IMG/VR virus record: IMGVR_UViG_3300045999_007667
Span: 1 to 38,579 of that record
Strand: one strand, 5' to 3'
Origin: a virus
DNA: 38,579 nucleotides
Positions 10,008 through 38,579 of the stretch are shown one piece after another (position 1 is the first letter of the stretch; each line of letters starts with the position of its first letter). Made by a program: the position numbers and the translations under genes. The notes beneath the pieces are model-generated. The model saw only the letters and a list, made by a program, of their open reading frames with translations, did no database searches and was not told the DNA's origin.

Positions 10008-10874
10008 TCACGACACCTTCGGCAGAATGTCCGGGGCGTTGGTGTCTGGCGTCACGATCCGCGGATCGAGGTATTTCCTCGTTGTCTTTGGATCGGCGTG
10101 ATCCAGCAGGGCCTGGGCTGACAGCCCAGCCGCCTGCGCATAAGACGCTGTCGTCTTGCGGATTTTGTGGAATTTGCACGATCTGTTCGCCGGCAGCCCC
10201 GCCCGCTTCAGGATGATCTCAAGGCGCTTCCACAGGTAGGACTTCGCCCGCGGGAACGGAAACACAAGATCGTTTGGCTGCCTGCGGATCTCATTCAGGG
10301 CTGCCTCCGTCTCGGCGCTGATTGTCCGAAGAATGTCCCGTCGCTTGCCCTTCCTGTTCTCGGCGGAATACAGGATCGTCCTGCCGCGAATGTCCCGCCA
10401 CCGCAGGGATACGATGGATCCGACCCTTTCCCCGGTGTCGTAGCACACCAGCAGCAGCGCGCGCCACCACAGGGCGGCAGGGATGTCGCCGTACTTCGTC
10501 GTCTCCTTGGCTGCGGAATCAAGGATCATTCGCACCTCGTCGGCAAACCACGCCTCCGGAACCCGTTCAGGCACCCTGACGAGGCTGATCGTCGGCCACA
10601 TCTCCACCATCCGCCGGCGGGCCGCCAGTTCCCACATCGCGCGGATCTGGCTGCGGTCTTTCGCCGCCGTGGCTGGCTGCCGCTCGCGGACGCGTTTGGC
10701 GAGGAACCGCGCCACCTTGAGATCATCAAGATCGGCCAGCGTCGGTTCGTGGCCCAGCGATTTGCCGAACTCCGAAATGGTGATTTTGTAGAGCGTCTCG
10801 GTGTGCTTCCCGATCTGCTTCAGCGGAATGTAGATGTCTTGCAGAAAATCGACGAGTTTCATTGGTGGCCCCAC
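10008..10874 (-). CDS. int: Phage-type tyrosine recombinase (integrase)
   Basis: The catalytic set is visible: Arg150 (YDTGERVGS), a Lys around 175-178, His236-x-x-Arg239 (FHKIRKT), His259 (LDHADPKTTRKY) and the nucleophile Tyr268. An N-terminal SAM-like core-binding domain occupies residues about 5-90. At 288 residues it lacks the extra insert diagnostic of integron integrases (IntI), so I call it a phage integrase for site-specific integration. The start is ambiguous: GTG at 10874, with AAGGAGG about 16 bp upstream, or ATG at 10862. It converges with the tail module and follows a small minus gene by 27 bp. Confidence 0.9.
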   Translation of the reverse strand: MGPPMKLVDFLQDIYIPLKQIGKHTETLYKITISEFGKSLGHEPTLADLDDLKVARFLAKRVRERQPATAAKDRSQIRAMWELAARRRMVEMWPTISLVRVPERVPEAWFADEVRMILDSAAKETTKYGDIPAALWWRALLLVCYDTGERVGSIVSLRWRDIRGRTILYSAENRKGKRRDILRTISAETEAALNEIRRQPNDLVFPFPRAKSYLWKRLEIILKRAGLPANRSCKFHKIRKTTASYAQAAGLSAQALLDHADPKTTRKYLDPRIVTPDTNAPDILPKVS

Positions 10875-10901
10875 AAACTGGCATATGCCACCTCCTTGCG
10901 G

Positions 10902-11105
10902 TCACAGCAAACTCCGAAGTCGTTTCGGAGTCACGACGAAAACTTTTTGAATCCGGATCTGCGGGCATTCGGCACGGTTGGTCACAGACCAGACGGCGCG
11001 AGCCTTTGAGGCTGCGCCGGCGGCAGTCTTTGCGCACACCACAATTTCATCTGTGTCCTCCACAGTCCCTTCAACCCAATCAATCAGCACTCTCCATCGC
11101 CTCAT
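10902..11105 (-). CDS. Small hypothetical protein upstream of integrase (67 aa)
   Basis: The start is well supported by AAGGAGG a few bases upstream on the minus strand. The product begins MRRWRVLIDWVEGTVED and is basic towards the C-terminus (TPKRLRSLL). Size, charge and position directly before the integrase suggest an excisionase or directionality factor, but I see no canonical winged-helix signature, so the name is not assigned. Confidence 0.6.
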   Translation of the reverse strand: MRRWRVLIDWVEGTVEDTDEIVVCAKTAAGAASKARAVWSVTNRAECPQIRIQKVFVVTPKRLRSLL

Positions 11106-11129
11106 CTGGCACCCCTCCTTGGCTGCCTG

Positions 11130-11153
11130 TAGAGTGTTGCCGCCTCCACTCTA
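11130..11153. promoter_or_regulatory. Candidate operator: 7-bp inverted repeat between divergent int and regulator genes
   Basis: TAGAGTG at 11130-11136 and its exact complement CACTCTA at 11147-11153 are separated by 10 bp. Just to its right, 11154-11161 reads TTGACAAT on the minus strand, a -35-like box pointing towards the integrase side. The inverted repeat therefore falls between that -35 and the minus-strand start, as expected for an operator bound by a dimeric repressor, probably the product of 11191-11706. Confidence 0.5.
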
Positions 11154-11154
11154 A

Positions 11155-11184
11155 TTGTCAAGGACGGGGTGAAACACCCACAAT
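11155..11184 (+). promoter_or_regulatory. Candidate promoter for the regulator gene, possibly leaderless
   Basis: TTGTCA (11155-11160) and CACAAT (11179-11184) are spaced by 18 bp. Transcription would start about 7 bp later, essentially at the ATG at 11191, and there is no Shine-Dalgarno sequence before that ATG. This suggests a leaderless mRNA such as lambda cI makes from its maintenance promoter. It is inferred from two hexamers only. Confidence 0.35.
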
Positions 11185-11190
11185 ACCGCC

Positions 11191-11706
11191 ATGGAAAACG
11201 AGGCGATCGGCGCGTGGGAAGCCGCTGGACTCATGGGAGTCCACTTCTCACGCCCGAAGAAGATGGTTGACGCAGGAACTATCTCGGGGAGGGCGCTGTT
11301 CTCCAACGAAGGACGAGATTTCCTTGTGTATTCGCTCGCGGACTGCAACCAGAACTTCCGCGACTACCTAGAGAACCGCACCGGCAGCAAGCGGGGTCGG
11401 ACAGCCGTCAACGACAGGCCGAGGATGCTCCGGCTGCTGGCCGCCAAAGGCCGGCCGAAGATCGCCTACGAGGACGCCATCGGGGCCTACGAGGCCGCCA
11501 AGATACTAGGTGTCTACTGGACGTTCATGGCGCGGCTGGCGAAAAACGGACACATCGTCGGCAGAATCCTGCACTCCGGCAGGTCCGACAGGTCGCGGCT
11601 CTGGATCTTCTCGCGGAAATCCTGCGAGGCGCGGGCCGTCGAAATCGCGAAACTTGAGAAAGCCGGCAAGAAGATTGGCCGCCCGCGGAGTTATGTTGAC
11701 AGGTAG
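11191..11706 (+). CDS. Regulator-like protein with two tandem helix-turn-helix-type repeats (171 aa)
   Basis: Two related segments are visible: AIGAWEAAGLMGVHFSRPKK (about residues 5-24) and AIGAYEAAKILGVYWTFMAR (about residues 95-114). Both have the EAA..(L/M)GV shape of excisionase/MerR-type helix-turn-helix motifs, and both are followed by a GxISGR or GHIVGR wing. The C-terminus is basic. It is divergent from the integrase operon across the inverted repeat, so a lysogeny repressor or directionality regulator is the best reading. No peptidase or LexA-like cleavage domain is present. Confidence 0.6.
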   Translation: MENEAIGAWEAAGLMGVHFSRPKKMVDAGTISGRALFSNEGRDFLVYSLADCNQNFRDYLENRTGSKRGRTAVNDRPRMLRLLAAKGRPKIAYEDAIGAYEAAKILGVYWTFMARLAKNGHIVGRILHSGRSDRSRLWIFSRKSCEARAVEIAKLEKAGKKIGRPRSYVDR

Positions 11707-11723
11707 CCAAGCGCCGCTATCCT
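11696..11723 (+). promoter_or_regulatory. Sigma-70-type promoter for the replication operon
   Basis: TTGACA at 11696-11701 and TATCCT at 11718-11723 are separated by 16 bp. The helicase ATG follows at 11745 with AAGGAGG between. The -35 overlaps the end of the regulator gene. The hexamers are close to consensus in an otherwise GC-rich sequence. Confidence 0.5.
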
Positions 11724-11744
11724 CCATCGGCCAAGGAGGACGCC

Positions 11745-13121
11745 ATGCTCTGGCAGCATCAGCAGGAAGCGATTTCGTGGGCAATCGGACGACTCTGCGT
11801 CCTTTTGCACATGGGGATGGGGACCGGCAAATCCCGCGTCCTGCTTGAGATTCTGCGGGCCGAATCGCTGTCCCGCGTCTTGATCTGCTGCCCCAAGGCC
11901 GTCGTTCCGGCATGGGGTAAGCAGGGCGGCCTGTGGCTGCCCGAGTACCGGATCCTGCTGCTCACGAAGGGGTCCTCCAAGCAGAAGGAAAAACTCGTCG
12001 AGGCCGCCATGGCCGACAATTCGCCGCTCATCGTGGTCACGAACTACGAGTCGGCGTGGCGGATCCCGCTTCTGGAAAAGACCCAGTGGGACGCCATCTG
12101 CTACGACGAGTGCCACAAACTCAAGGCTCCGAGCGGCACGACGAGCCGCTGGGCCGCCCGCATGGGCAAAAAGAACCCCACGGCCAAGCGCATCGGCCTG
12201 TCCGGCACGCTGCTGGCGCACTCGCCGCTCGATGCCTACGGCGTCTACAGGGCCGTCGAGTCGCCGGAGTGCCAGACGTTCGGGCAGTCATTCACGGCGT
12301 TTCGGTCACGCTATGCCGTGACGCGGCCGGGCTATCCCGGCTGGGTCGTCGGCTACCGAAATACCGACGAGTTCGGCACGAAGATTGCACAAACGACGTT
12401 TCATCGACGGTCGGAAGACGTTTTGGATCTGCCTGACATCATGCACGAACAGGTGGACGTTGAGTTGTCGGACAAGGAGGCGGCCCTGTACCGTGCGCTG
12501 GATCGCGATTTCTGCGCGACGGTCGGCGGCCGCGAGGTCACGCCGGCCAATGTCCTCGTCCACCTCATCCGGCTGCTTGAGGTCTGCGGGGGCAGTATTC
12601 ATGCCGACGGCTCCAAGCAGGCAATCACAATCGACGAGACTCCGAGCAAGGCGGCCGCGCTGTCTGATATTCTGGACTGTCTGGCTCACACAGAGCCGCT
12701 TGTCGTGTTTCATCGCTACAAAGCCGACGGCGAGGCCGCCGCCGCGGCCTGCATCAAGGCTGGCAGGTCTGTCAGCGTCCTGAACGGAGAACGCAACGAA
12801 CTCGCCGACTGGCAGGCCGGGAGGACGACCGTGCTGATTGCGAACCAAGCCAGCGGCGGCGTCGGGATCGACCTGACGCGGGCGGCCTACGGCGTGTTCT
12901 ACAGCCTCGGTCACAGTCTGAGCGACTACCTGCAGGCGATCGCCCGGCTGCACCGCCCCGGGCAGGCCAAGAAAACGCATTTTTACAGTCTGGTGGCTAC
13001 GGTAGACGGCAACCAGACGGTGGACGGAGCGGTCTACAAGGCTTTGGAAAGCAGACAGGAGGTCATTGATGCAATCATTACAGGCTACAGAGACTCACAA
13101 CGGGCTCTCGGGGCTGCTTGA
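11745..13121 (+). CDS. SNF2-like DEAD/DEAH superfamily II helicase (458 aa)
   Basis: Motif I is GMGTGKS (residues 24-30), motif II DECH (121-124), motif III GLSGT (151-155), and the C-terminal lobe has QAIARLHRPGQ (motif VI) and ASGGVGIDLT (motif V). These are the features of SNF2-type ATPases found in many phages, which translocate on or remodel DNA during replication and recombination. Its start has a strong Shine-Dalgarno (AAGGAGG). The end overlaps the next gene by 53 bp. It opens the replication module. Confidence 0.85.
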   Translation: MLWQHQQEAISWAIGRLCVLLHMGMGTGKSRVLLEILRAESLSRVLICCPKAVVPAWGKQGGLWLPEYRILLLTKGSSKQKEKLVEAAMADNSPLIVVTNYESAWRIPLLEKTQWDAICYDECHKLKAPSGTTSRWAARMGKKNPTAKRIGLSGTLLAHSPLDAYGVYRAVESPECQTFGQSFTAFRSRYAVTRPGYPGWVVGYRNTDEFGTKIAQTTFHRRSEDVLDLPDIMHEQVDVELSDKEAALYRALDRDFCATVGGREVTPANVLVHLIRLLEVCGGSIHADGSKQAITIDETPSKAAALSDILDCLAHTEPLVVFHRYKADGEAAAAACIKAGRSVSVLNGERNELADWQAGRTTVLIANQASGGVGIDLTRAAYGVFYSLGHSLSDYLQAIARLHRPGQAKKTHFYSLVATVDGNQTVDGAVYKALESRQEVIDAIITGYRDSQRALGAA

Positions 13122-22927: not shown

Positions 22928-22973
22928 GAACGCTTGCGATCTGCGGCTCGTCCGCAGCATCGCGTGGTTATCA
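22925..22973 (+). repeat. attC-like site 3 (standard)
   Basis: The arms are GAGAACGCTTGCGATCTGCGG and CCGCAGCATCGCGTG followed by GTTATCA, around a CTCGT loop. GCGAT/ATCGC and CTGCGG/CCGCAG pair with one unpaired C on the right arm. The compensating change CAGCGG to CTGCGG with CCGCTG to CCGCAG shows that the stem is maintained. Confidence 0.75.
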
Positions 22974-22996
22974 CACTGGAAACAAAGGAGGATGGC

Positions 22997-23194
22997 GTGG
23001 AAGAGATGTTCTGGCAAGGCATGACGTTGCTGCTTGCTCTCGTCTCGCTGTTGTCGTACGGCGATGCTCGGTATTGGCGAGGCAAAGCGATGACGATAGA
23101 CAAGGAGCGCACGGGCTCCGGCTGGGAGGACGAGGCGAAGTTTTGGCGCAAGCACTTCGATGCAGAGGCGGCGGAGTGGGTTGAGACGCTGTGA
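22997..23194 (+). CDS. Array unit 3: small membrane-anchored protein (65 aa)
   Basis: A GTG at 22997 has AGGAGG (22987-22992) 4 bp upstream; ATG 23006 is an alternative. The N-terminal segment MFWQGMTLLLALVSLLSYG is hydrophobic and could anchor it, followed by a charged helical tail rich in Trp/Glu. Unit termini are GTTATCACA and TGTGAGAAC (one mismatch). I recognise no family. Confidence 0.5.
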   Translation: MEEMFWQGMTLLLALVSLLSYGDARYWRGKAMTIDKERTGSGWEDEAKFWRKHFDAEAAEWVETL

Positions 23195-23240
23195 GAACGC
23201 CAGCGATCAGCGGCTCGTCTGCTGCATCGCGTGGTTCTCA
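23191..23240 (+). repeat. attC-like site 4 (standard)
   Basis: GTGAGAAC (23191-23198), then the standard arms GCCAGCGATCAGCGG and TGCTGCATCGCGTG around CTCGTC, ending GTTCTCA (23234-23240). The stop of the preceding gene lies in the left core. Confidence 0.75.
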
Positions 23241-23259
23241 GAAGCAAAGGAGTAGTGAG

Positions 23260-23442
23260 ATGCCGTGTCCGAAGTGCGGAAGCGCGAATAGCGAAATGCC
23301 TGTGTCCTGGAAGTTGGTAGAGAACTGCTCTGGTGAGGTTTTGCGGCGGTCAAAGAACCGCGTGTTGGTGGCTGGTTGGCGTCGCGTCATCGGGGCAACG
23401 GTTGTGCCGGTGTTCGCGCGGAGAGCCAAACGGAAGAAGTGA
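23260..23442 (+). CDS. Array unit 4: zinc-ribbon-like small protein (60 aa)
   Basis: The ATG at 23260 follows AGGAG. The N-terminus MPCPKCGSANSE has the CPxCG half-site of a zinc ribbon, with another Cys near residue 24. The C-terminus is strongly basic (FARRAKRKK). It may bind nucleic acid. Termini are GTTCTCA and TGAGAAC; its stop is in the left core of site 5. Confidence 0.5.
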   Translation: MPCPKCGSANSEMPVSWKLVENCSGEVLRRSKNRVLVAGWRRVIGATVVPVFARRAKRKK

Positions 23443-23526
23443 GAACGGCTGCATTGAGCAGCCCGAGAAAGGACGTTGACATGACACAGGGCGATGCCGG
23501 GTCTGCTCCAATGCTTGGTTCTGTGG
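23439..23526 (+). repeat. attC-like site 5 (family C, start codon in loop)
   Basis: The left arm is GTGAGAACGGCTGCATTGAGCAG and the right arm CTGCTCCAATGCTTG with GTTCTGTGG (23518-23526). GCATT/AATGC and GAGCAG/CTGCTC pair with one unpaired C on the right. The stem sequence differs from the standard site, but the shape and the bulge are the same. The loop holds ATG 23481. Confidence 0.75.
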
Positions 23527-23783
23527 CGAACGGTCAAGCGAACCTTGACGGTTGGATTCCGGTGACGGAGCGGCCGCCGGACGTTGAGAGATCGCCCCAC
23601 GGAAGCGTTGAGTGCATTGTCGCGTGCAGCACAGGGCTCGTAACGGCCATGAGGTACACGGAAAACAGGAACGCCAAGACCGAGAAGGGCCGCAGGCCGA
23701 GATGGGAGTGGAACTGGAGAGTGGCAACGTGGGAGGTCACCCACTGGATGCCGCTCCCGGCCCCGCCACAAGCCGACAAGTAG
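23481..23783 (+). CDS. Array unit 5: DUF551-type protein with attC-encoded N-terminus (100 aa)
   Basis: The ATG at 23481 is in the loop of site 5 and the frame passes through the core GTT. After the leader MTQGDAGSAPMLGS, the body has DGWIPVTERPPD and the ending VTHWMPLPAPP, the two halves of DUF551, a family of small phage and prophage proteins of unknown role. Unit 10 carries a second DUF551 copy with identical termini (GTTCTGTGG, CCACAGAAC), so the two share descent. Confidence 0.7.
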   Translation: MTQGDAGSAPMLGSVANGQANLDGWIPVTERPPDVERSPHGSVECIVACSTGLVTAMRYTENRNAKTEKGRRPRWEWNWRVATWEVTHWMPLPAPPQADK

Positions 23784-23835
23784 CCACAGAACGCCAGCGA
23801 TCAGCGGCTCGTCCGCTGCATCGCTTGGTTATGCC
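23784..23835 (+). repeat. attC-like site 6 (standard)
   Basis: CCACAGAAC (23784-23792), standard arms around CTCGT, then GTTATGCC (23828-23835). The two outer cores do not pair with each other; each pairs with the far end of its own unit. Confidence 0.8.
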
Positions 23836-23860
23836 GGGTTGATTCACAAAGGAGAAGCAG

Positions 23861-24199
23861 ATGAATGAAGTGAAAAACGCGATCATTCGCGGTGCAAAAC
23901 TCACGACTGAGGATCACGGTGTTTTGACCGCATGGATCGAACTGGACTACGGCGGCACAAGCCAGGGTTTCGGCGGATACGGCCTGTACCTTCCGAAGTC
24001 TTGCCGTCACCACTCGCTCACTGGCCCGGCTGGGCATTTCATCTGGCGGGTGTTGGAGATCGCGGACGTTGCCGAGTGGGGGAAGTTGGTCGGTAAGACG
24101 ATCCGGGTTCGTGGAGACCACGGCGGCGTGGAGGCAATCGGCCACATCGTCAAGGACGATTGGTTCTGTCCGCGAGAGGACTTCAAGGGATTGGCATAA
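23861..24199 (+). CDS. Array unit 6: small phage protein with GGYGLYL and KDDWF motifs (112 aa)
   Basis: The ATG at 23861 has AGGAG upstream. The sequence [20 protein letters not shown], then [16 protein letters not shown] and [12 protein letters not shown], is a pattern I associate with small conserved phage proteins of unknown function. The TAA overlaps the left core of site 7 (GCATAAC). Unit termini are GTTATGCC and GGCATAAC. Confidence 0.65.
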
Positions 24200-24244
24200 C
24201 GCCAGCGATCAGCGGCTCGTCCGCTGCATCGCTTGGTTCTCGCT
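24193..24244 (+). repeat. attC-like site 7 (standard)
   Basis: GGCATAAC (24193-24200), standard arms, GTTCTCGCT (24236-24244). The right core belongs to unit 7, whose far end is AGCGAGAAC, a nine-base match. Confidence 0.8.
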
Positions 24245-24271
24245 GAGTGGCACAATGTTACTGGAGACGAC

Positions 24272-24538
24272 ATGACCGAAAAACCTGTTGCCGAATCGCC
24301 AAAACTGCTACATGAGAAACTGCCTGCCGCAGACGGTGCTTTCGCGTGGTTCGCGGGCTGGTACGCGACCCGCCTGCACTGCATCAAGATTGCTGACACT
24401 GGCGGCACCGACAACGCCGGCCGTGCTGTTTGCGGCGCATGGTGCTACGAGAAACCAAAGACAAAGTACGCCGCTCGCCTGCTCGCAAAGGGAGTCCAGC
24501 GATGCAAGCATTGCGAGAGGATCGTTGCGGGTGGGTAG
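24272..24538 (+). CDS. Array unit 7: Cys-containing small protein (88 aa)
   Basis: The ATG at 24272 has GGAG 5 bp upstream. Cys residues occur as VCGAWCY and RCKHCERI, a possible treble-clef zinc site, and FAWFAGWYATRLHC lies in the middle. The function is unknown. A six-codon frame (ATG 24254) ends over the start in an ATGA overlap. Termini are GTTCTCGCT and AGCGAGAAC. Confidence 0.55.
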   Translation: MTEKPVAESPKLLHEKLPAADGAFAWFAGWYATRLHCIKIADTGGTDNAGRAVCGAWCYEKPKTKYAARLLAKGVQRCKHCERIVAGG

Positions 24539-24628
24539 CGAGAACGCCAGCGATCAGCGGCATCGAACACAGGAGACGACCATGACGAAAGAGGTAGATG
24601 AGATGTCCGCTGCATCGCGTGGTTCTCA
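24537..24628 (+). repeat. attC-like site 8 (standard stem, long loop with start codon)
   Basis: AGCGAGAAC (24537-24545), left arm GCCAGCGATCAGCGG and right arm CCGCTGCATCGCGTG with GTTCTCA. In place of CTCGT the loop is about 48 bases and holds AGGAG and ATG 24582. It shares its loop with site 1. Confidence 0.8.
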
Positions 24629-24902
24629 GCCGTTTGCGTGGGCGGCAGACATTCCCGGCAAGTTCGGTGCCGCACCTACGGTGCTGTTTGGACACACGGA
24701 AAAACTTGTGTGGAGCATTGCTGCCGCTGGTGGTGATGCGGTGCGGCCGTTTCCGCTCTACCGCTCGCCCGCGCTCACCGACGAGGAGCAACTTGCGATT
24801 GCATGGGCTGCCAGAGAGGCCGACGAGTGGGATGAGGAAGACACTCCAGAGGTCGCCGCACACGCCGAAGTGTTGCGCGGCTTGGCGAAGCGACTGTTCT
24901 GA
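24582..24902 (+). CDS. Array unit 8: PLYRSP/LTDEE-motif protein with attC-encoded N-terminus (106 aa)
   Basis: The ATG at 24582 is in the loop of site 8, with AGGAG upstream. The leader MTKEVDEMSAASRGS crosses the core into QPFAWAADIPG; FPLYRSPALTDEEQLAIAW follows. It is related to the genes at 21801 and 26241. Without the leader the unit has no in-frame ATG. Termini are GTTCTCAG and CTGAGAAC. The function is unknown. Confidence 0.65.
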   Translation: MTKEVDEMSAASRGSQPFAWAADIPGKFGAAPTVLFGHTEKLVWSIAAAGGDAVRPFPLYRSPALTDEEQLAIAWAAREADEWDEEDTPEVAAHAEVLRGLAKRLF

Positions 24903-24949
24903 GAACGCTGGCGATCAGCGGCTCGTCCGCTGCATCGCTTGGTTCTCAC
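24899..24949 (+). repeat. attC-like site 9 (standard)
   Basis: CTGAGAAC (24899-24906), GCTGGCGATCAGCGG, CTCGT, CCGCTGCATCGCTTG, then GTTCTCAC (24942-24949). Confidence 0.8.
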
Positions 24950-24965
24950 GGGCATGGAGAATGAC

Positions 24966-25178
24966 ATGAGCGACATAGCGAAAGAACTGCGAGAGAGATC
25001 ACTACGGGCAGAGCAGGAAGGTGAACCGTTGGCCTTGCTGGACGAGGCGGCCGACGAGATTGAGCGGTTGCGGCTTACCTCTGCCGAGCGGACGATCATT
25101 GAGTGGGCTGCTGGCTACCGAAGCCTGCATGCGGACTGTCGCGCCGCGCTTCGCGGGCTGCTGGAACGGACGAAGTGA
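24966..25178 (+). CDS. Array unit 9: small helical protein ending LRGLLERTK (70 aa)
   Basis: I chose ATG 24966 because GGAGA lies 5 bp upstream; ATG 24954 is an alternative. The sequence ALLDEAADEIERLRLTSAER is typical of small phage proteins with a DEAADEIERLR helix. The ending LRGLLERTK is shared with the gene at 21801. Termini are GTTCTCAC and GTGAGAAC. Confidence 0.6.
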   Translation: MSDIAKELRERSLRAEQEGEPLALLDEAADEIERLRLTSAERTIIEWAAGYRSLHADCRAALRGLLERTK

Positions 25179-25267
25179 GAACGCGAAGGATCATGAGCGG
25201 CGAGGAGCAAACATGACTACACCGAACGACACCAACGAGCCGTCTCTTGCATCCGCTGGTTCTGTGG
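25175..25267 (+). repeat. attC-like site 10 (family B, start codon in loop)
   Basis: GTGAGAAC (25175-25182), left arm GAAGGATCATGAGCGGC, right arm GAGCCGTCTCTTGCATCC, then GCTG and GTTCTGTGG (25259-25267). The loop contains GAGGAG and ATG 25213. The right arm has extra T and C against the left arm. Confidence 0.75.
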
Positions 25268-25647
25268 CGAACGAGACGGCCATCGACTCGCGGACGCTGG
25301 CGGTCAAACTTCACGCCGTCGCGGCTGCTGCCTGCTACAGCGATCAGGCGATTCGGGACTGGCTGCACATCGCGGCGAACCACATCGCTATCCACAACAT
25401 GGGCATCACCGGATACGGCCGATGGATTCCAGTGACGCAGCGATTGCCGCCACATGACGAGACGGTCTTATACACCTGCGATCTGGGGCCGAACGAAGGC
25501 TTTACGGATATTGAGTCTGGGCGGTGGGATGGCGCGAGAAATGACATGGGACAGCCAGCGATGCGTCCGGTGTGGGGCGACGTAGACGACTGGGGGCCGT
25601 GTTCTCACTGGATGCCGCTCCCGGCACCGCCCGAGACGAGCAAGTAG
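25213..25647 (+). CDS. Array unit 10: DUF551-type protein with attC-encoded N-terminus (144 aa)
   Basis: The ATG at 25213 is in the loop of site 10. The leader MTTPNDTNEPSLASAGS runs across the core into VANETAIDSR. A helical segment (LAVKLHAVAAAACYSDQAIR) precedes GRWIPVTQRLPPHDETVLY and the ending SHWMPLPAPP, the DUF551 hallmarks. It shares termini with unit 5. The role of DUF551 is not known. Confidence 0.7.
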   Translation: MTTPNDTNEPSLASAGSVANETAIDSRTLAVKLHAVAAAACYSDQAIRDWLHIAANHIAIHNMGITGYGRWIPVTQRLPPHDETVLYTCDLGPNEGFTDIESGRWDGARNDMGQPAMRPVWGDVDDWGPCSHWMPLPAPPETSK

Positions 25648-25698
25648 CCACAGAACGCCAGCGATCAGCGGCTCGTCCGCTGCATCGCGTGGTTAGCG
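25648..25698 (+). repeat. attC-like site 11 (standard)
   Basis: CCACAGAAC (25648-25656), standard arms around CTCGT, then GTTAGCG (25692-25698). Confidence 0.8.
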
Positions 25699-25715
25699 AG
25701 GAAATGGAGAATCAG

Positions 25716-25937
25716 ATGGTAATACGAGACGAGATCGGACGGACGATTGAAGTCGGGATGCGTGTCGGTTGCCGAAATACTGGAGAGCCTCGCGAAATGT
25801 CCAGGCGTGGGTTGACGCTGCTGGGGTACGAGCCAGATTCAGACCGGCCGTACATCACTGACGCTGGCAGATTTGGCTTGGCTCTCAAGGATCACCAGCC
25901 AGACATGGATCAGTGGATTGCATCGCACGTCCGCTAA
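25716..25937 (+). CDS. Array unit 11: small hypothetical protein (73 aa)
   Basis: I prefer ATG 25716, with GGAGA 6 bp upstream, over ATG 25704. The protein reads as a small beta-rich fold (IGRTIEVGMRVGCRN) with a later YITDAGRFGLAL. I recognise no family. The TAA at 25935-25937 lies in the left core of site 12 (CGCTAAC). Termini are GTTAGCG and CGCTAAC. Confidence 0.55.
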   Translation: MVIRDEIGRTIEVGMRVGCRNTGEPREMSRRGLTLLGYEPDSDRPYITDAGRFGLALKDHQPDMDQWIASHVR

Positions 25938-25981
25938 CGCCAGCGATCAGCGGCTCGTCCGCTGCATCGCTTGGTTATGCC
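25931..25981 (+). repeat. attC-like site 12 (standard)
   Basis: CCGCTAAC (25931-25938), standard arms, GTTATGCC (25974-25981). Confidence 0.8.
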
Positions 25982-26005
25982 AACGCCCGGAAAAGGACGA
26001 ATGAA

Positions 26006-26215
26006 ATGAAAGCAGATGGTGGCGAATACAGGATTACGGTCGGGCAACTCAGGAAGTTGCTTGACGGCGAACCGGACGACGCCGTTGTTGTTGTTCAAGG
26101 CACTGACGCATCTGGTGCGCCATGCACTAACTCGATCTACAAGGTGGCATGCGCCGCCGACGAGCGTTTTCTGTTTTTGTATTCCGGTGGACGGTGGCCG
26201 ACGCGAGACGCATAA
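26006..26215 (+). CDS. Array unit 12: small protein with TVGQLRKLLDGEPDDA motif (69 aa)
   Basis: The ATG at 26006 has AAGGA upstream. YRITVGQLRKLLDGEPDDAV is the opening of a small domain, seen in many bacterial and phage proteins, in which a helix is followed by PDDaxV and a strand (compare DUF6225-like proteins). Its function is unknown. The TAA is in the left core of site 13. Termini are GTTATGC and GCATAAC. Confidence 0.6.
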   Translation: MKADGGEYRITVGQLRKLLDGEPDDAVVVVQGTDASGAPCTNSIYKVACAADERFLFLYSGGRWPTRDA

Positions 26216-26300
26216 CGTGAAGGATCAGGAGCGGCGAACAATGAACACTGACAACACGCAGGACGGTGCCGAGCCGTCTCCTGCATCCGCTGGTTCTCAG
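26210..26300 (+). repeat. attC-like site 13 (family B, start codon in loop)
   Basis: GCATAAC (26210-26216), left arm GAAGGATCAGGAGCGGC and right arm GCCGTCTCCTGCATCC pair fully apart from the extra T and C on the right. GCTG and GTTCTCAG (26293-26300) follow. ATG 26241 is in the loop. Confidence 0.8.
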
Positions 26301-26576
26301 CCGGTGGCGTGGGCGGTGACGCAAAGCGAATGCTGGTCGGTTTACCTGAACTTGCTTGATGCCAACCGTGCGGCCACGCACGGGCTTGGAGAACTTGTCC
26401 CGCTCTACCGCGAGCCGCAGCCCACGCTCACCGACGAGGAGCGGGAGGCGATTGAACGGCTGTGCGAGGCCGTGACGGAGTATTCCGATATCGACCGCAA
26501 GGAGAACGGATGCCACGCCGACGATGACATGGCGGCGGTCGCTGTGGCACGCGGGCTGATGAAACGAATGGTCTGA
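26241..26576 (+). CDS. Array unit 13: PLYREP/LTDEE-motif protein with attC-encoded N-terminus (111 aa)
   Basis: The ATG at 26241 is behind AGGAG inside the loop. The leader MNTDNTQDGAEPSPASAGS continues into QPVAWAVTQSE, and later LVPLYREPQPTLTDEEREAI. It is a relative of the genes at 21801 and 24582. The unit has no in-frame ATG of its own near the start. Termini are GTTCTCAG and CTGAGAAC. Confidence 0.65.
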   Translation: MNTDNTQDGAEPSPASAGSQPVAWAVTQSECWSVYLNLLDANRAATHGLGELVPLYREPQPTLTDEEREAIERLCEAVTEYSDIDRKENGCHADDDMAAVAVARGLMKRMV

Positions 26577-26624
26577 GAACGCCAGCGATCAGCGGCTCGT
26601 CCGCTGCATCGCGTGGTTCTCACA
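26573..26624 (+). repeat. attC-like site 14 (standard)
   Basis: CTGAGAAC (26573-26580), standard arms around CTCGT, GTTCTCACA (26616-26624). Confidence 0.8.
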
Positions 26625-26642
26625 TGAGCAAGGGGAAATGGT

Positions 26643-26903
26643 GTGCTAGACCCAACAAAGCGGTGCCTGCACTGCACCTTCTATGACGACTTTGACTCGC
26701 TGTGCAAGGCGCATCCGCCGGCTTACGCTGGCGACATTGTTGACCAATACGGCGACAGGGTGAGCCACTATTCGCAGCCAATCATTGAGCAAGCGTGGGC
26801 TGAAACGTGTGGCGAATGGCAAGCCGCACAACCGGGCAAGACGGCGGAAGAGCGGCGGGCAGAGATTTTGTTTGCCGCCAAGTTGGGCAAACAGGACAAG
26901 TGA
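26643..26903 (+). CDS. Array unit 14: Cys-motif small protein (86 aa)
   Basis: A GTG at 26643 follows AAGGGGA. RCLHCTFYDDFDSLCKAHPP has a CxxC and a third Cys with a following His, a possible zinc site of the type seen in small phage proteins that continue with a CGEW segment, also present here. The function is unknown. Termini are GTTCTCAC and GTGAGAAC. Confidence 0.55.
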   Translation: MLDPTKRCLHCTFYDDFDSLCKAHPPAYAGDIVDQYGDRVSHYSQPIIEQAWAETCGEWQAAQPGKTAEERRAEILFAAKLGKQDK

Positions 26904-26991
26904 GAACACGCAGGATCAGGAGCATCGCATGAGTGATTCAACTACACCGCAGGACCACAAGGCGATGCCTCCTGCATCCGCTGGTTCTCAC
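26900..26991 (+). repeat. attC-like site 15 (family B, clearest stem, start codon in loop)
   Basis: GTGAGAAC (26900-26907), left arm GGATCAGGAGCATCG (26913-26927) and right arm CGATGCCTCCTGCATCC. GGAT, CAGGAG and CATCG all pair, leaving exactly two unpaired C on the right arm. GTTCTCAC (26984-26991) closes it. ATG 26929 starts at the base of the loop. Confidence 0.85.
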
Positions 26992-27276
26992 GCGGAATCC
27001 CAACTGGAGCGGGTTGCCGAAATCGTCCACTGCGCCATGCGGTGGTATCGCGAGGGCACCACAAAGAAGTGGCAGGGCGGCAACAGTTACGCCGAAGACA
27101 GGGCGAGGCTTGCGGCGCGGAGGATTGCGAGGATTTTTCAGCCCACGCTCACCGACGAGGAGCGGACGGCAGTCGGACGCGCCGCGATGCTGATTGACGA
27201 CACGGTGATTGACGACAGTGATCTGGCGCTGAACGACTACCGAGCCCTTCGCGGGCTTTACGAGCGGACAAAGTGA
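26929..27276 (+). CDS. Array unit 15: LTDEE-motif protein with attC-encoded N-terminus (115 aa)
   Basis: The ATG at 26929 is in site 15. The leader MSDSTTPQDHKAMPPASAGS crosses the core into HAESQLERVAEIV. FQPTLTDEERTAVGRAAML and the ending LRGLYERTK place it in the same group as the genes at 21801 and 24966. Termini are GTTCTCAC and GTGAGAAC. Confidence 0.65.
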   Translation: MSDSTTPQDHKAMPPASAGSHAESQLERVAEIVHCAMRWYREGTTKKWQGGNSYAEDRARLAARRIARIFQPTLTDEERTAVGRAAMLIDDTVIDDSDLALNDYRALRGLYERTK

Positions 27277-27365
27277 GAACGCCAGCGATCAGCGGCCCGC
27301 GACCGCTGACGAAACTACAACCAGACAGCGGCATCGCGGGTCCGCTGCATCGCGTGGTTAGGTGC
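27273..27365 (+). repeat. attC-like site 16 (standard stem with long nested hairpin)
   Basis: GTGAGAAC (27273-27280) and GTTAGGTGC (27357-27365). Inside the standard arms CAGCGG/CCGCTG the stem continues as CCCGCGA/TCGCGGG, then an inner CCGCTG pairs with CAGCGG. GTTAGGT fits the classical GTTRRRY core; the other right cores here do not. Confidence 0.75.
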
Positions 27366-33639: not shown

Positions 33640-33791
33640 CCGTTCTCGATCTGCAGGCGGATGGCCCGCGCATATTGCGAGACATGCGCCGCCGGCAAGA
33701 CCCGGGCCTCTACCAAGAGCCGGAGCCATTCCACCACGTTGTAGCGAGTGAGGCGATTACGCCCAACGCGCTGCGGCCATTCTTTTTCCAC
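33612..33791 (-). CDS. Small minus-strand protein (59 aa), probable
   Basis: A GTG at 33791 opens a frame beginning MEKEWPQRVGRNRLTRYNVV, continuing EWLRLLVEARVLPAAHVSQY and ending APWPKES. The composition looks like a real protein, with a helix-turn-helix-like first half. It overlaps the neighbouring minus gene by 35 bp and the convergent HNH gene by 28 bp. Confidence 0.4.
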   Translation of the reverse strand: MEKEWPQRVGRNRLTRYNVVEWLRLLVEARVLPAAHVSQYARAIRLQIENGQAPWPKES

Positions 33792-34152
33792 GTTCGCTCA
33801 TCGCTTTCTTGTCACGGTGGATCCTGGTGACGCCGGCCGAAAGGACGTTGTCCCTGACCTGATTGAGTTGCGACTGCGGCAGGTAGCGGCGGTTGCCCAC
33901 TTTCACGCCCAGCCCCGTGCGCTCCAGCACCCGGAGGACCGTGGATCGCGAGCATCCAATGATTGTGGCGGCTTGCTGCAGGGTCAACTGCTTTCCACGG
34001 ACGGGTGTGCTTTCCACGGACGGGTCACGCCCTTTGAGAAAAGCCTTGTTGCCGAGATACACGACCTCGCCGCGGCTGGCCGCCCTGGCGATGACTGTCC
34101 GGCGAGAGACGCCTGACAGTCGGGCTACTGTGTCTGCGTCTGCTAGTTTCAT
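33757..34152 (-). CDS. DNA-binding protein with two HTH motifs (131 aa)
   Basis: ADTVARLSGVSRRTVIARAA and LQQAATIIGCSRSTVLRVLE are two helix-turn-helix motifs of the excisionase/MerR type, each followed by a small wing (GEVVYLGNKAF, VKVGNRRYLP). The C-terminus SERGKRMAAARW is basic. Near bases 33996-34025 the gene holds two copies of CACGGACGGGT, which also occurs in the 17-bp repeats at 38.1 kb. It is the first minus gene after the convergence point. Confidence 0.65.
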   Translation of the reverse strand: MKLADADTVARLSGVSRRTVIARAASRGEVVYLGNKAFLKGRDPSVESTPVRGKQLTLQQAATIIGCSRSTVLRVLERTGLGVKVGNRRYLPQSQLNQVRDNVLSAGVTRIHRDKKAMSERGKRMAAARWA

Positions 34153-34424: not shown

Positions 34425-34673
34425 TCACAACACTTCCGCCAGTGCGTCCGCAATCGCGTCGTGGTCGTCGCCGGCCGTTACGCTCAACAAGCGCAGGCCG
34501 TCCGCGGCGTCCAGCGCCTCGACTTCCGTCGGGCCGTCATACGAGTCCACCGCGACCCGCCTGACGGCCGGCCCGTGGCCGGCGCTCTTTAGTCTTTCCA
34601 AAACACCTTCATCGAGCCACAGGCAGCCGGCTTCCTGTATGGCATACAGGGCGTTTTTGACATATCCCATCAC
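34425..34673 (-). CDS. Small hypothetical protein (82 aa)
   Basis: It starts MMGYVKNALYAIQEAGCLWL; the initiating ATG could be 34673 or 34670. The C-terminus is acidic (DDHDAIADALAEVL). It overlaps the preceding minus gene by 4 bp. No family is recognised. Confidence 0.5.
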   Translation of the reverse strand: MMGYVKNALYAIQEAGCLWLDEGVLERLKSAGHGPAVRRVAVDSYDGPTEVEALDAADGLRLLSVTAGDDHDAIADALAEVL

Positions 34674-34903
34674 TTCACCGCCTTTCGGATGATTCTATTC
34701 AGGAAGGCAACGTCCACGCGGTCGTTCAGCCTTGGCACCTTGACGCCGATCCTTCGGAGGTCTGACGCATACACCAGCATGGCCGCTTCGGTCGTGCCGA
34801 GCCGCTTGGCAATCTGTGCGCCGGACTCACCCGAGACATACCCCTCCATGTACCGGCGCACGAACGTGGAAAATGGCCGCTCTCCGGGTGCGTATCGCTT
34901 CAT
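34670..34903 (-). CDS. HTH-like small protein (77 aa)
   Basis: The start at 34903 has GGAG 8 bp upstream. The segment SGESGAQIAKRLGTTEAAML is a helix-turn-helix-like motif, and the ending DVAFLNRIIRKAVK is basic. It may be a small regulator. It overlaps the preceding gene end at 34900-34903. Confidence 0.5.
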   Translation of the reverse strand: MKRYAPGERPFSTFVRRYMEGYVSGESGAQIAKRLGTTEAAMLVYASDLRRIGVKVPRLNDRVDVAFLNRIIRKAVK

Positions 34904-35193
34904 CGCTTTTTGCTCCTGACCTTGCTCCGGATCTTGTACGGACGGCATACGACTTCCGGAGCCGCCTTGTTCCTTCGCCGCCCTTCAACGTGAAGCAGCA
35001 CGGCGCCGTCCTTGTTTCGGGCCTCGATATAGACCCGCGCCCCGTGGCGGGTGGCTCTCACGAACGTGCAGGTTCCGCGCGTTGCCAGCGGGATCTTTCG
35101 GCCGTCGCTGGTTTTCCAGTACGGCCCGCCGCTGACGCGAAACTTGTCGCCCGGCCGAAGAACCACCCGCTCAGAAACGCGGTACTCATTCAT
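34900..35193 (-). CDS. Small basic beta-rich protein (97 aa)
   Basis: Strands VVLRPGDKFRVSGGPYW and RVYIEARNKDGAVLLHVEG suggest a small beta barrel or SH3-like fold, and the C-terminus is very basic (YKIRSKVRSKKR). Nucleic-acid binding is plausible. It overlaps the next upstream gene by 8 bp. Confidence 0.5.
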   Translation of the reverse strand: MNEYRVSERVVLRPGDKFRVSGGPYWKTSDGRKIPLATRGTCTFVRATRHGARVYIEARNKDGAVLLHVEGRRRNKAAPEVVCRPYKIRSKVRSKKR

Positions 35194-36210: not shown

Positions 36211-36675
36211 CTACAGTGCAACTGCCGTGCCAACGGGCCAGACATATTCAAGGCTGTCCGGCTCGGTCCATCCGAATTGTGAGTAGTGCGCCGGAAGTTT
36301 CCGGAGCAGGTTGCTGCGGTGCGAGGCATGGAAGTCGTCGTCGCCCAGCCACGGCGGCGGCCCGTCGTCGCCATTCCTCAGAACGCTCCACGCCGCATCC
36401 GAAAACTGCGGGAGAAGTGTGTCCCTGTATCCACGCTGCCGCCACTCGCGGCAGATTTCCATGGCATACACGCACAGCGAGTATTCGTGCCCTTGCCACA
36501 TACGGGTGGCCGGGTGGCTGCGCCAACTGCTTGGCTTTTCATGTAGGGGTCCCCCGACCGGAACGCCGAGAGCCTGCAGGATCTGCTTGCACTCGACCCT
36601 TTGCTTGCCGAGCCGGCGGTAGTCCAGGCACTTGGCAGACTTCTGAAAACTGCTGTAGGGCAAAAAGGTTTGCAT
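36211..36675 (-). CDS. Pyrimidine dimer DNA glycosylase-family protein (154 aa)
   Basis: MQTFLPYSSFQKSAKCLDYR, then RLGKQRVECKQIL, SHPATRMWQGHEYSL and CREWRQRGYRDTLLP match the Pyr_excise/MSMEG_6728-like group, related to T4 endonuclease V, which removes UV-induced pyrimidine dimers. Gln2/Thr3 and the Arg-rich RRLGKQR helix stand where T4 EndoV has its catalytic N-terminus and Arg22. Family membership is likely, activity unproved. Confidence 0.6.
   Translation of the reverse strand: MQTFLPYSSFQKSAKCLDYRRLGKQRVECKQILQALGVPVGGPLHEKPSSWRSHPATRMWQGHEYSLCVYAMEICREWRQRGYRDTLLPQFSDAAWSVLRNGDDGPPPWLGDDDFHASHRSNLLRKLPAHYSQFGWTEPDSLEYVWPVGTAVAL
36217..36232 (-). promoter_or_regulatory. Sigma-54-like promoter d
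   Basis: On minus TGGCACGGCAGTTGCA, an exact match to TGGCACGNNNNTTGCA. It overlaps the last codons of the glycosylase-like gene; the ATG of the DUF6878-type gene is 33 bp downstream. Confidence 0.7.
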
Positions 36676-37468: not shown

Positions 37469-37867
37469 CTATTCCTTGTCAGTGCAATCGCCGTGCCGCA
37501 GTTCGTCGAAAATACGCTCGGCGTTCTCCGCGTACCACTCGGCCACCTTCTCGTAGATGTAGTAATAGATGGCCGCCATGCCGTTGTTCTCGCGGGGATT
37601 TTCTCCCACGCCAGCGTTCTCATAGGCTTCTTGCAGCGCGCGCCCATGCAGAAACCAAGCGGCCTCTATCTGGCTGTCCCATATAGGAACGGAACCATCG
37701 ACGATCCCATGCACCGAGCCGTCATAATCCAAATCGTTTGACAGGCACGGCACAGAATCCGGCTCGTTGTCTTTGATGTAGTCGCGGAGAAGGTTGTTCA
37801 CTTCCTCCAGCGCCGTTTGGACGCAATAGGGCAGAACGTCTTCAACTTCAATCGTTCGCTTTGTCAT
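37469..37867 (-). CDS. Small acidic hypothetical protein (132 aa)
   Basis: The start at 37867 has AGGAGG upstream and a sigma-54-like site (37893-37908). The protein is acidic, with LEEVNNLLRDYIKDNEPD, a Tyr-rich helix (AIYYYIYEKVAEWYAENAER) and two Cys. No family is recognised. Its last codons contain sigma-54-like site c. Confidence 0.6.
   Translation of the reverse strand: MTKRTIEVEDVLPYCVQTALEEVNNLLRDYIKDNEPDSVPCLSNDLDYDGSVHGIVDGSVPIWDSQIEAAWFLHGRALQEAYENAGVGENPRENNGMAAIYYYIYEKVAEWYAENAERIFDELRHGDCTDKE
37483..37498 (-). promoter_or_regulatory. Sigma-54-like promoter c
   Basis: On minus CGGCACGGCGATTGCA, matching the consensus apart from the first T. It overlaps the last codons of the 37469 gene; the HTPGPW gene starts 49 bp downstream. 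Confidence 0.6.
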
Positions 37868-37888: not shown

Positions 37889-38065
37889 TTAGTGCAAGTC
37901 GTGTGCCAGGAACGACGGCATGGCCGGGGCTTCGTAGAGCGTTTGCCCAAGCGCCTGCTCTCTGGTTTCGTACCCGCTGGTGTGGCAATACTCGCCGTCC
38001 TCGCATCGCTCCAGCCGCACCCACGATCCGAGCGAATCGCTCCAGTAAGCAGTCGTGTTTTTCAT
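37889..38065 (-). CDS. Small hypothetical protein (58 aa)
   Basis: The start at 38065 has AGGAG 9 bp upstream and sigma-54-like site a at 38100-38115. The product begins MKNTTAYWSDSLGSWVRLER and has EYCHTSGYETREQALGQTLY. No family is recognised. It is the promoter-proximal gene of the whole minus run. Confidence 0.5.
   Translation of the reverse strand: MKNTTAYWSDSLGSWVRLERCEDGEYCHTSGYETREQALGQTLYEAPAMPSFLAHDLH
37893..37908 (-). promoter_or_regulatory. Sigma-54-like promoter b
   Basis: On minus TGGCACACGACTTGCA, with TGGCAC and TTGCA at consensus spacing. It overlaps the last codons of the 37889 gene. -12 lies about 27 bp before the ATG at 37867. Confidence 0.65.
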
Positions 38066-38099: not shown

Positions 38100-38115
38100 T
38101 GCAACTGCTGTGCCA
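38100..38115 (-). promoter_or_regulatory. Sigma-54-like promoter a
   Basis: On minus TGGCACAGCAGTTGCA, with TGGCAC and TTGCA at consensus spacing, 36 bp from -12 to the ATG at 38065. It is next to the 17-bp tandem repeats, which lie on its upstream side. Confidence 0.7.
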
Positions 38116-38116
38116 C

Positions 38117-38200
38117 ACGGGTCCTTATCACGGACGGGTCCTTATCACGGACGGGTCCTTATCACGGACGGGTCCTTATCACGGACGGGTCCTTATCACC
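38117..38200. repeat. Five tandem 17-bp repeats
   Basis: GGGTCCTTATCACGGAC recurs with a 17-bp period; GGGTCC begins at 38119, 38136, 38153, 38170 and 38187. Copies are identical apart from the edges. They lie 4 to about 85 bp upstream of sigma-54-like promoter a, so they could be enhancer-binding-protein sites. Repressor operators or replication iterons are alternatives. Confidence 0.85.
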
Positions 38201-38398
38201 CGCCCGGCGGCCCGGCCCGCCCGGCGGCCCCCCGGCCCGCCACCCCCTCGGACGGGGGGGCCTCCCCGCCGGATGGGGGGATCCGGCCGCCGCCGGCCCG
38301 AAGCCCGCCCCGTCGGGGAAGGATTCAAGCCGGCCGCGCTGGCGGCCGATTGAATAGGCTACCGGGCCGCACAATCGGCGGCCGGCCCTGCAGGAGCC
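38201..38398. other. GC-rich divergent intergenic region with inverted repeats
   Basis: The 200-bp stretch is almost pure G/C up to 38320, with runs of five to seven C or G that could form G-quadruplexes. GCCGATTG (38345-38352) and CAATCGGC (38372-38379) form an inverted repeat around an AT-containing stretch (AATAGGCTA). It separates minus and plus genes and may hold divergent control or origin functions. No ORF is convincing. Confidence 0.45.
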
Positions 38399-38403
38399 AT
38401 GCC

Positions 38404-38579
38404 ATGCCACGGGATCCGATCGCGCTCGCCGTCGCCGCCGCCGCGCTCGCCGCCGCGCTACGATCCCCGCCCCCGCCCCCGCCGTCGCCGTTCGTGGCCG
38501 GGCCGCCGGCGCCGTTCGTGGCCGGGCCGCCGGCGCCGTTCGTGGCCGGGCCGCCGGCGCCGTTCGTGGCCGGGCCGCC
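38404..38579 (+). CDS. 5' part of a proline-rich repeat protein with N-terminal hydrophobic helix
   Basis: The ATG at 38404 has AGGAG 8 bp upstream. The start MPRDPIALAVAAAALAAALR has a signal- or anchor-like helix, followed by a run of Pro and then repeats of the octapeptide PFVAGPPA, encoded by a 24-bp unit (CCGTTCGTGGCCGGGCCGCC plus GGCG). Four copies are seen and the frame runs off the edge. The protein may be an envelope-spanning or cell-wall protein; the DNA repeat could also be an assembly limit. Confidence 0.5.
   Translation, partial: MPRDPIALAVAAAALAAALRSPPPPPPSPFVAGPPAPFVAGPPAPFVAGPPAPFVAGP

Follow-up and report, generated by a model that had tools for sequence, protein, structure and literature searches.

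Genomic setting and structure of the array

The window, by which we mean the whole 38,579-base stretch of the virus record analyzed here, is a fragment of a tailed phage, with matches to phage helicase, primase/polymerase, exonuclease, dCMP deaminase, head-closure, and methyltransferase proteins. Near its right end, a tandem array of a 17-bp unit is found where a leftward and a rightward operon diverge. The features of this region considered below are as follows:

38404–38579 (+), first part of the divergent operon, encoding a small protein that opens with MPRDPIALAVAAA, contains PFVAGPPA repeats, and extends past the window
38200–38403 (no strand), GC-rich low-complexity spacer between the divergent operons; varies among relatives
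38117–38199 (−), tandem array; gene-ward unit GACCCGTCCGTGATAAG at 38191–38175, 38174–38158, 38157–38141, and 38140–38124
38123–38118 (−), partial array unit GACCCG, ending the gene-ward series of GACCCGTCCGTGATAAG units
38100–38115 (−), -24/-12 (sigma-54-type) promoter-like site TGGCACAGCAGTTGCA; every array-bearing relative has such a site in the same place with respect to the array
37889–38065 (−), leftward operon, first gene (58-aa product of unknown function); missing from the near-identical L006/L013
37893–37908 (−), second -24/-12-like site, TGGCACACGACTTGCA
37469–37867 (−), leftward operon, second gene (132-aa product of unknown function); conserved beside the array
37483–37498 (−), third -24/-12-like site, CGGCACGGCGATTGCA
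36217–36232 (−), fourth -24/-12-like site, TGGCACGGCAGTTGCA
34010–34026 (−), intragenic motif copy GACCCGTCCGTGGAAAG, 20.2 bits, within the winged-helix gene
33991–34007 (−), another motif copy within that gene, CACCCGTCCGTGGAAAG, 19 bp beyond the first and in a different reading frame
33757–34152 (−), predicted double winged-helix (Xis/MerR-like) DNA-binding protein, 131 aa, candidate array binder (HTH_17, excisionase models, AlphaFold2, and PDB folds)

The array far exceeds chance expectation: its identity run at lag 17 extends over 66 bases, whereas the longest run at any lag from 10 to 40 in 10 shuffled windows was 9–11 bases. TRF reported 4.9 copies of ACGGGTCCTTATCACGG with 100% matches at 38117–38199. 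Read in the GGGTCC register, units start at 38119, 38136, 38153, 38170, and 38187, which recovers all five starts given in the earlier note; its count of five exact 17-bp copies has to be reduced to four complete units, the fifth comprising 13 nt (GGGTCCTTATCAC) followed by CCGCCC. Toward the minus-strand genes the unit reads GACCCGTCCGTGATAAG, with no dyad symmetry by inspection. The units abut head to tail with no unique spacers between the repeats, which ruled out a CRISPR array, and Rfam and tRNA searches returned no matches. Since 17 bp corresponds to approximately 1.6 helical turns, the earlier remark that this spacing is not helically phased was right.

The promoter-like site TGGCACAGCAGTTGCA (38115–38100, minus strand) lies 1 bp from the array, in agreement with the placement of the repeats directly upstream of a sigma-54-like promoter, and the array stands upstream of the -24/-12 element without overlapping it. 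The site contains GG-N10-GC as well as the consensus flanks of the -24/-12 element, is located 34 nt before the first SD sequence and ATG, and heads the leftward operon. Further such sites, at 37908, 37498, and 36232, precede genes, and in the relatives they also concentrate in the first kilobases of the operon. Two -24/-12-like matches near 12374 and 13149, which also occur outside the operon in relatives, were disregarded because they are probably coding. A search of eight virus records for a virus-encoded sigma-54 AAA+ activator gave none over the cut-off.

For the GC-rich right side of the window we considered a host junction or prophage end, as well as the end repeats of a transposable phage, and rejected both. 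Relatives, a related 51-kb contig among them, continue through this region into further genes, and G007 (58.9 kb) shows one and the same tandem repeat of this region at its two contig ends, so that this part of the sequence is viral; such end repeats are as expected of a nearly complete circle or a circularly permuted genome. Genes in the divergent GC-rich operon are preceded by a box that recurs upstream of their starts, GGCTACCGG(G)C(G/C)(G/A)CACAA (window 38357–38404, +; L005 9480–9900, +), a promoter or leader class different from the -24/-12 sites. Beyond the array of L005, the region 10150–12190 (+) harbors an AAA+ ATPase gene with a Walker-type motif, below the cut-off as a sigma-54 activator, and, from our reading of the sequence, presumably a VWA/CobT-like protein; another tandem repeat, at the contig end, follows.

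Elsewhere in the window, a tyrosine recombinase gene (10008–10874, −; PF00589) has counterparts in all seven viral records tested, and the phage family may therefore be temperate. The window also carries, at 22929–27359 (+), ten copies of a hairpin element, AACGCCAGCGATCAGCGG...CCGCTGCATCGC[GT]TGGTT, eight of 41 bp and two of 82 bp with longer loops, which lie between nine small segments with ORFs. In five of nine cases, the box following one element is complementary over 7–9 nt to that preceding the next (permutation p ~ 0.02), an arrangement known from integron gene cassettes with attC-like sites; the R' box fits GTTRRRY poorly. These hairpins were not found in the relatives fetched; as the relatives possess the recombinase without them, the enzyme need not act on the attC-like elements.

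Conservation of the array and distribution of its motif

Relatives, most of them fragments, were collected by searches with the neighboring genes and with array patterns, and two features that the earlier note did not contain, conservation across viruses and a fixed orientation of the sites, emerged together with motif copies inside a helix-turn-helix gene (33991–34026). The array was located directly before the first -24/-12 site in 11 distinct virus records, plus near-identical copies, and its last unit starts 25–31 bp before the -24 element across the array-bearing records. The unit follows an asymmetric consensus, GACCCGTCCGTGGCAAA, which drifts between lineages and is near-identical within most arrays, with the core GACCC ... 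AA held across lineages. The main units are as follows:

GACCCGTCCGTGATAAG: window and near-identical L006/L013; L005/L007
GACCCGTCTGATGCAAG: L008, L009
GACCCGTCCGCCGCAAGTG, 19 bp: L014
GACCCCGGTGTAGCAAA, G005-type: L015, L041, L042
GACCCGCCCGTGATAAA: L018
GACCCGTCCGATGCAAA: L019
GACCCGCCCGTGACAAA: L045
degenerate unit set: L044

Since units are near-identical within most arrays and differ between lineages, and since L008 and L009, which are near-identical, have arrays one unit apart in length, the number of copies in an array grows and shrinks, in the manner of slippage. Two remoter relatives of the second gene (L046 and L047) carry it in a different setting that has no array, and three AT-rich phages retrieved via the first gene (L010–L012), which also have no array, were discarded. 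Scanning 2.9 million viral contigs with a generic array pattern yielded 12 contigs, of which 11 belong to the same phage family; the 12th (L053) was rejected as an unrelated AT-rich contig with neither a -24/-12 promoter nor the winged-helix gene. Searches of GTDB genomes for the exact motif and for the neighboring gene, and distant blastn against phage records, gave no match.

Next to the arrays themselves, the motif recurs within the operon. A weight matrix built from array units only (GACCCGTCCGTGGCAAA consensus) was used to scan seven records with the arrays masked, at a threshold of at least 17 bits. All 17 non-array matches fell within 7 kb downstream of the array and on the coding strand of the operon, the strand that every array unit also follows, while the other 294 kb gave none on either strand, and neither antisense matches nor matches in the reversed-sequence control were observed. 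These 17 correspond to approximately eight independent loci, because several are homologous copies of one locus. Three strong dispersed sites overlap start regions (GGAGACCCG...ATG) resembling ribosome-binding sites. The suggestion that the repeats are activator or repressor sites for the minus-strand genes gains from this confinement of further copies to the leftward operon and its coding strand, as well as from the array heading that operon in every array-bearing relative.

The leftward operon includes a pyrimidine-dimer DNA glycosylase-like gene (Pyr_excise-like, PF03013; 36211–36675, −), whose coding sequence in most relatives contains motif copies that lie 276–325 bp ahead of a -24/-12 site, itself conserved. 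In the window, weaker copies within this gene stand 276 bp (36508) and ~320 bp (36551) upstream of TGGCACGGCAGTTGCA; coding constraint may in part account for the dispersed sites of this gene. The copies inside the 33757–34152 gene recur in most of its homologs, often with a second copy 19–25 bp further on, and in G002, G006, and L045 the intragenic site equals the array consensus with the maximum possible score; G005, L041, and L042 possess the array and lack the DPSVAK intragenic site. The motif here encodes the disordered linker DPSV[AE]K of the predicted winged-helix protein. Its GAC CCG TCC codons are identical in six divergent homologs, whereas in the same comparison the codon was kept in only 9 of 42 amino-acid-invariant degenerate columns. 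As synonymous positions are frozen in a disordered stretch, this pattern indicates selection on the DNA.

The predicted double winged-helix protein

HTH_17 (PF12728) scored over its cut-off in the 33757–34152 protein and matched all 11 homologs, and the excisionase model TIGR01764 was just under its cut-off for the window protein. AlphaFold2 predicted, from the 11 homologs, a strand, two helices, and two strands, occurring twice, that is, two successive winged helices, joined by a disordered linker at residues 42–52, in a model of moderate confidence (mean pLDDT 73, pTM 0.43). Foldseek against the PDB placed TraN of pIP501 (4p0y) on top with an E-value of 0.019, followed by pSK1 Par, RacA, BldC, RdfS, and Tn916 Xis; whole-chain E-values were weak, this being the best, and single-domain matches were good. 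A profile search of PDB sequences returned only weak CRP matches and no sequence match to TraN. The gene is present in all 11 array-bearing records and absent from four array-less relatives of the neighboring gene, all of which are fragments. A second small operon protein (34670–34948, −) has a weak helix-turn-helix resemblance (Sigma70_r4_2, E 0.07, below the cut-off) and is a weaker candidate binder than the 33757–34152 protein.

TraN, a monomer with two winged HTHs, represses the operon in which it is encoded and binds ahead of both the operon promoter and its own (PMC10877727). The window protein shares with it one chain and, by prediction, two winged helices, and likewise lies in the operon that it would control; this is a likeness of fold only, with no sequence match found, and the TraN site is a preferred 34 bp, not a tandem array of exact repeats. 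The winged-helix proteins BldC, Xis, and RdfS oligomerize head to tail along DNA (PMC11963761); the window protein resembles them in domain type by Pfam, NCBIfam, and fold, and the array, too, is direct-repeat DNA with no dyad, whereas they have one winged helix per chain and the window protein is predicted to have two. Head-to-tail repeats that are not palindromic suit winged-helix proteins stacking in this way.

Possible roles of the array

On balance, we lean to the view that the array serves the leftward operon as its main operator cluster, bound by the phage's own double winged-helix regulator, which would probably autoregulate. With the 33757–34152 protein as the putative binder, each asymmetric 17-bp site would, head to tail, bind one molecule, one winged helix presumably reading its invariant GACCC half and the second reading the CAA half, approximately one turn away, and the shared orientation of the sites would let neighboring molecules stack head to tail. 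The array would concentrate the protein beside the first -24/-12 promoter, presumably read by host sigma-54, so that transcription of the operon, including the regulator's gene, would be reduced or timed, while the extra sites inside the operon, two of them in the regulator's own gene, could add feedback, possibly via impeded elongation. That the effect would be repression rather than activation is our judgement, drawn from the analogous known systems, against which it must be said that an array lying upstream of the promoter element, clear of it, suits an activator site at least as well.

Sigma-54 promoters require an enhancer-binding activator. Because the promoters resemble this type and the viruses have no activator over the cut-off, the main rival account is that a host sigma-54 enhancer-binding protein uses the repeats as upstream activating (enhancer) sites and contacts RNA polymerase at the -24/-12 promoters, by which the phage would read host physiology. 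We regard this as a real but minority possibility: textbook -24/-12 sites cluster in the leftward operon, the array, a site cluster of the kind seen at sigma-54 enhancers, is always directly upstream of the first one, and in several relatives other motif copies lie 167–325 bp upstream of later ones, but the sites are asymmetric direct repeats rather than the usual dyads, they stand 25–31 bp from the -24 element with no helical phase, and further copies are found in genes, among them the winged-helix gene, after which no -24/-12 promoter was found in the window. The strong drift of the units between related viruses is likewise unlike sites for one conserved host protein. That the winged-helix protein does occupy the array, but to activate transcription or to serve in DNA architecture or partition (Par/centromere-like) and not to repress, seems to us unlikely, although the array is positioned upstream of the promoter instead of over it and although RacA and pSK1 Par, the latter in complex with centromere DNA, belong to the best single-domain fold matches; copies inside several operon genes and the protein's own gene speak against it, and the tyrosine recombinase in every record makes integration plausible rather than plasmid-like upkeep.

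The earlier note had also entertained replication iterons beside the GC-rich region, here at an intergenic origin, and the neighboring DNA lends this proposal no support. Tandem direct repeats of typical iteron length, a copy number that varies between close strains, and an intergenic place between divergent operons are what iterons would show; we nevertheless consider them very improbable, because the adjacent 200 bp are 77–92% GC with no conserved A+T-rich element, GC skew follows gene direction only and is uninformative as a sign of an origin, and the motif recurs, dispersed and co-oriented, within genes. Moreover, no recognizable initiator gene is adjacent, no Rep-like family being found among the operon proteins next to it, many of which are of unknown function. 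Least credible of all is an element acting in RNA, as a translational operator or RNA-binding site in the operon messages: all strong sites do lie on the coding strand and three overlap start regions, but an array upstream of the promoter should be outside the operon's own message, and the 19-bp units of L014 contain neither ATG nor GTG.

Among known systems, regulation by the phage's own double winged-helix protein most invites comparison with the stoperators of cluster A mycobacteriophages. In L5 and TipsytheTRex, short asymmetric sites are oriented along transcription, at promoters or away from them, with a motif that varies between phages; each site is read by a monomer that has two DNA-binding domains and regulates its own expression, and reversal of a site abolishes repression (PMC9283540, PMC6550527). 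The present sites are similarly asymmetric and co-oriented, one lies in the candidate regulator's gene, and two DNA-binding domains are predicted in its product. They differ in measuring 17 bp against 13, in forming a tandem array at the first promoter, in the sigma-54-type promoters, and in that both predicted domains are Xis-like winged helices; their dispersed copies are confined to one operon and mostly intragenic, whereas those of cluster A are genome-wide and mainly in short intergenic gaps. As the sites are not spread genome-wide in intergenic gaps and the candidate regulator is Xis/MerR-like, we did not file the system as a stoperator-type member.

To our knowledge, it is unusual for a phage operon to have a chain of sigma-54-type promoters; a literature search for phage sigma-54 promoters found no relevant precedent, which does not prove absence. 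We suggest, tentatively, that this uncultivated phage family, with its chain of sigma-54-type promoters and a TraN-like regulator on co-oriented asymmetric sites, both in the tandem array at the first promoter and within coding sequence, the regulator's own linker included, may possess a stoperator-like system, linked to host sigma-54 and evolved separately from that of the mycobacteriophages. If this is right, a phage family with no relative in the reference genomes searched would gain a concrete regulator–site pair, a 131-aa protein and a 17-bp site, and would provide an independently built case of oriented asymmetric operators read by a two-headed protein.
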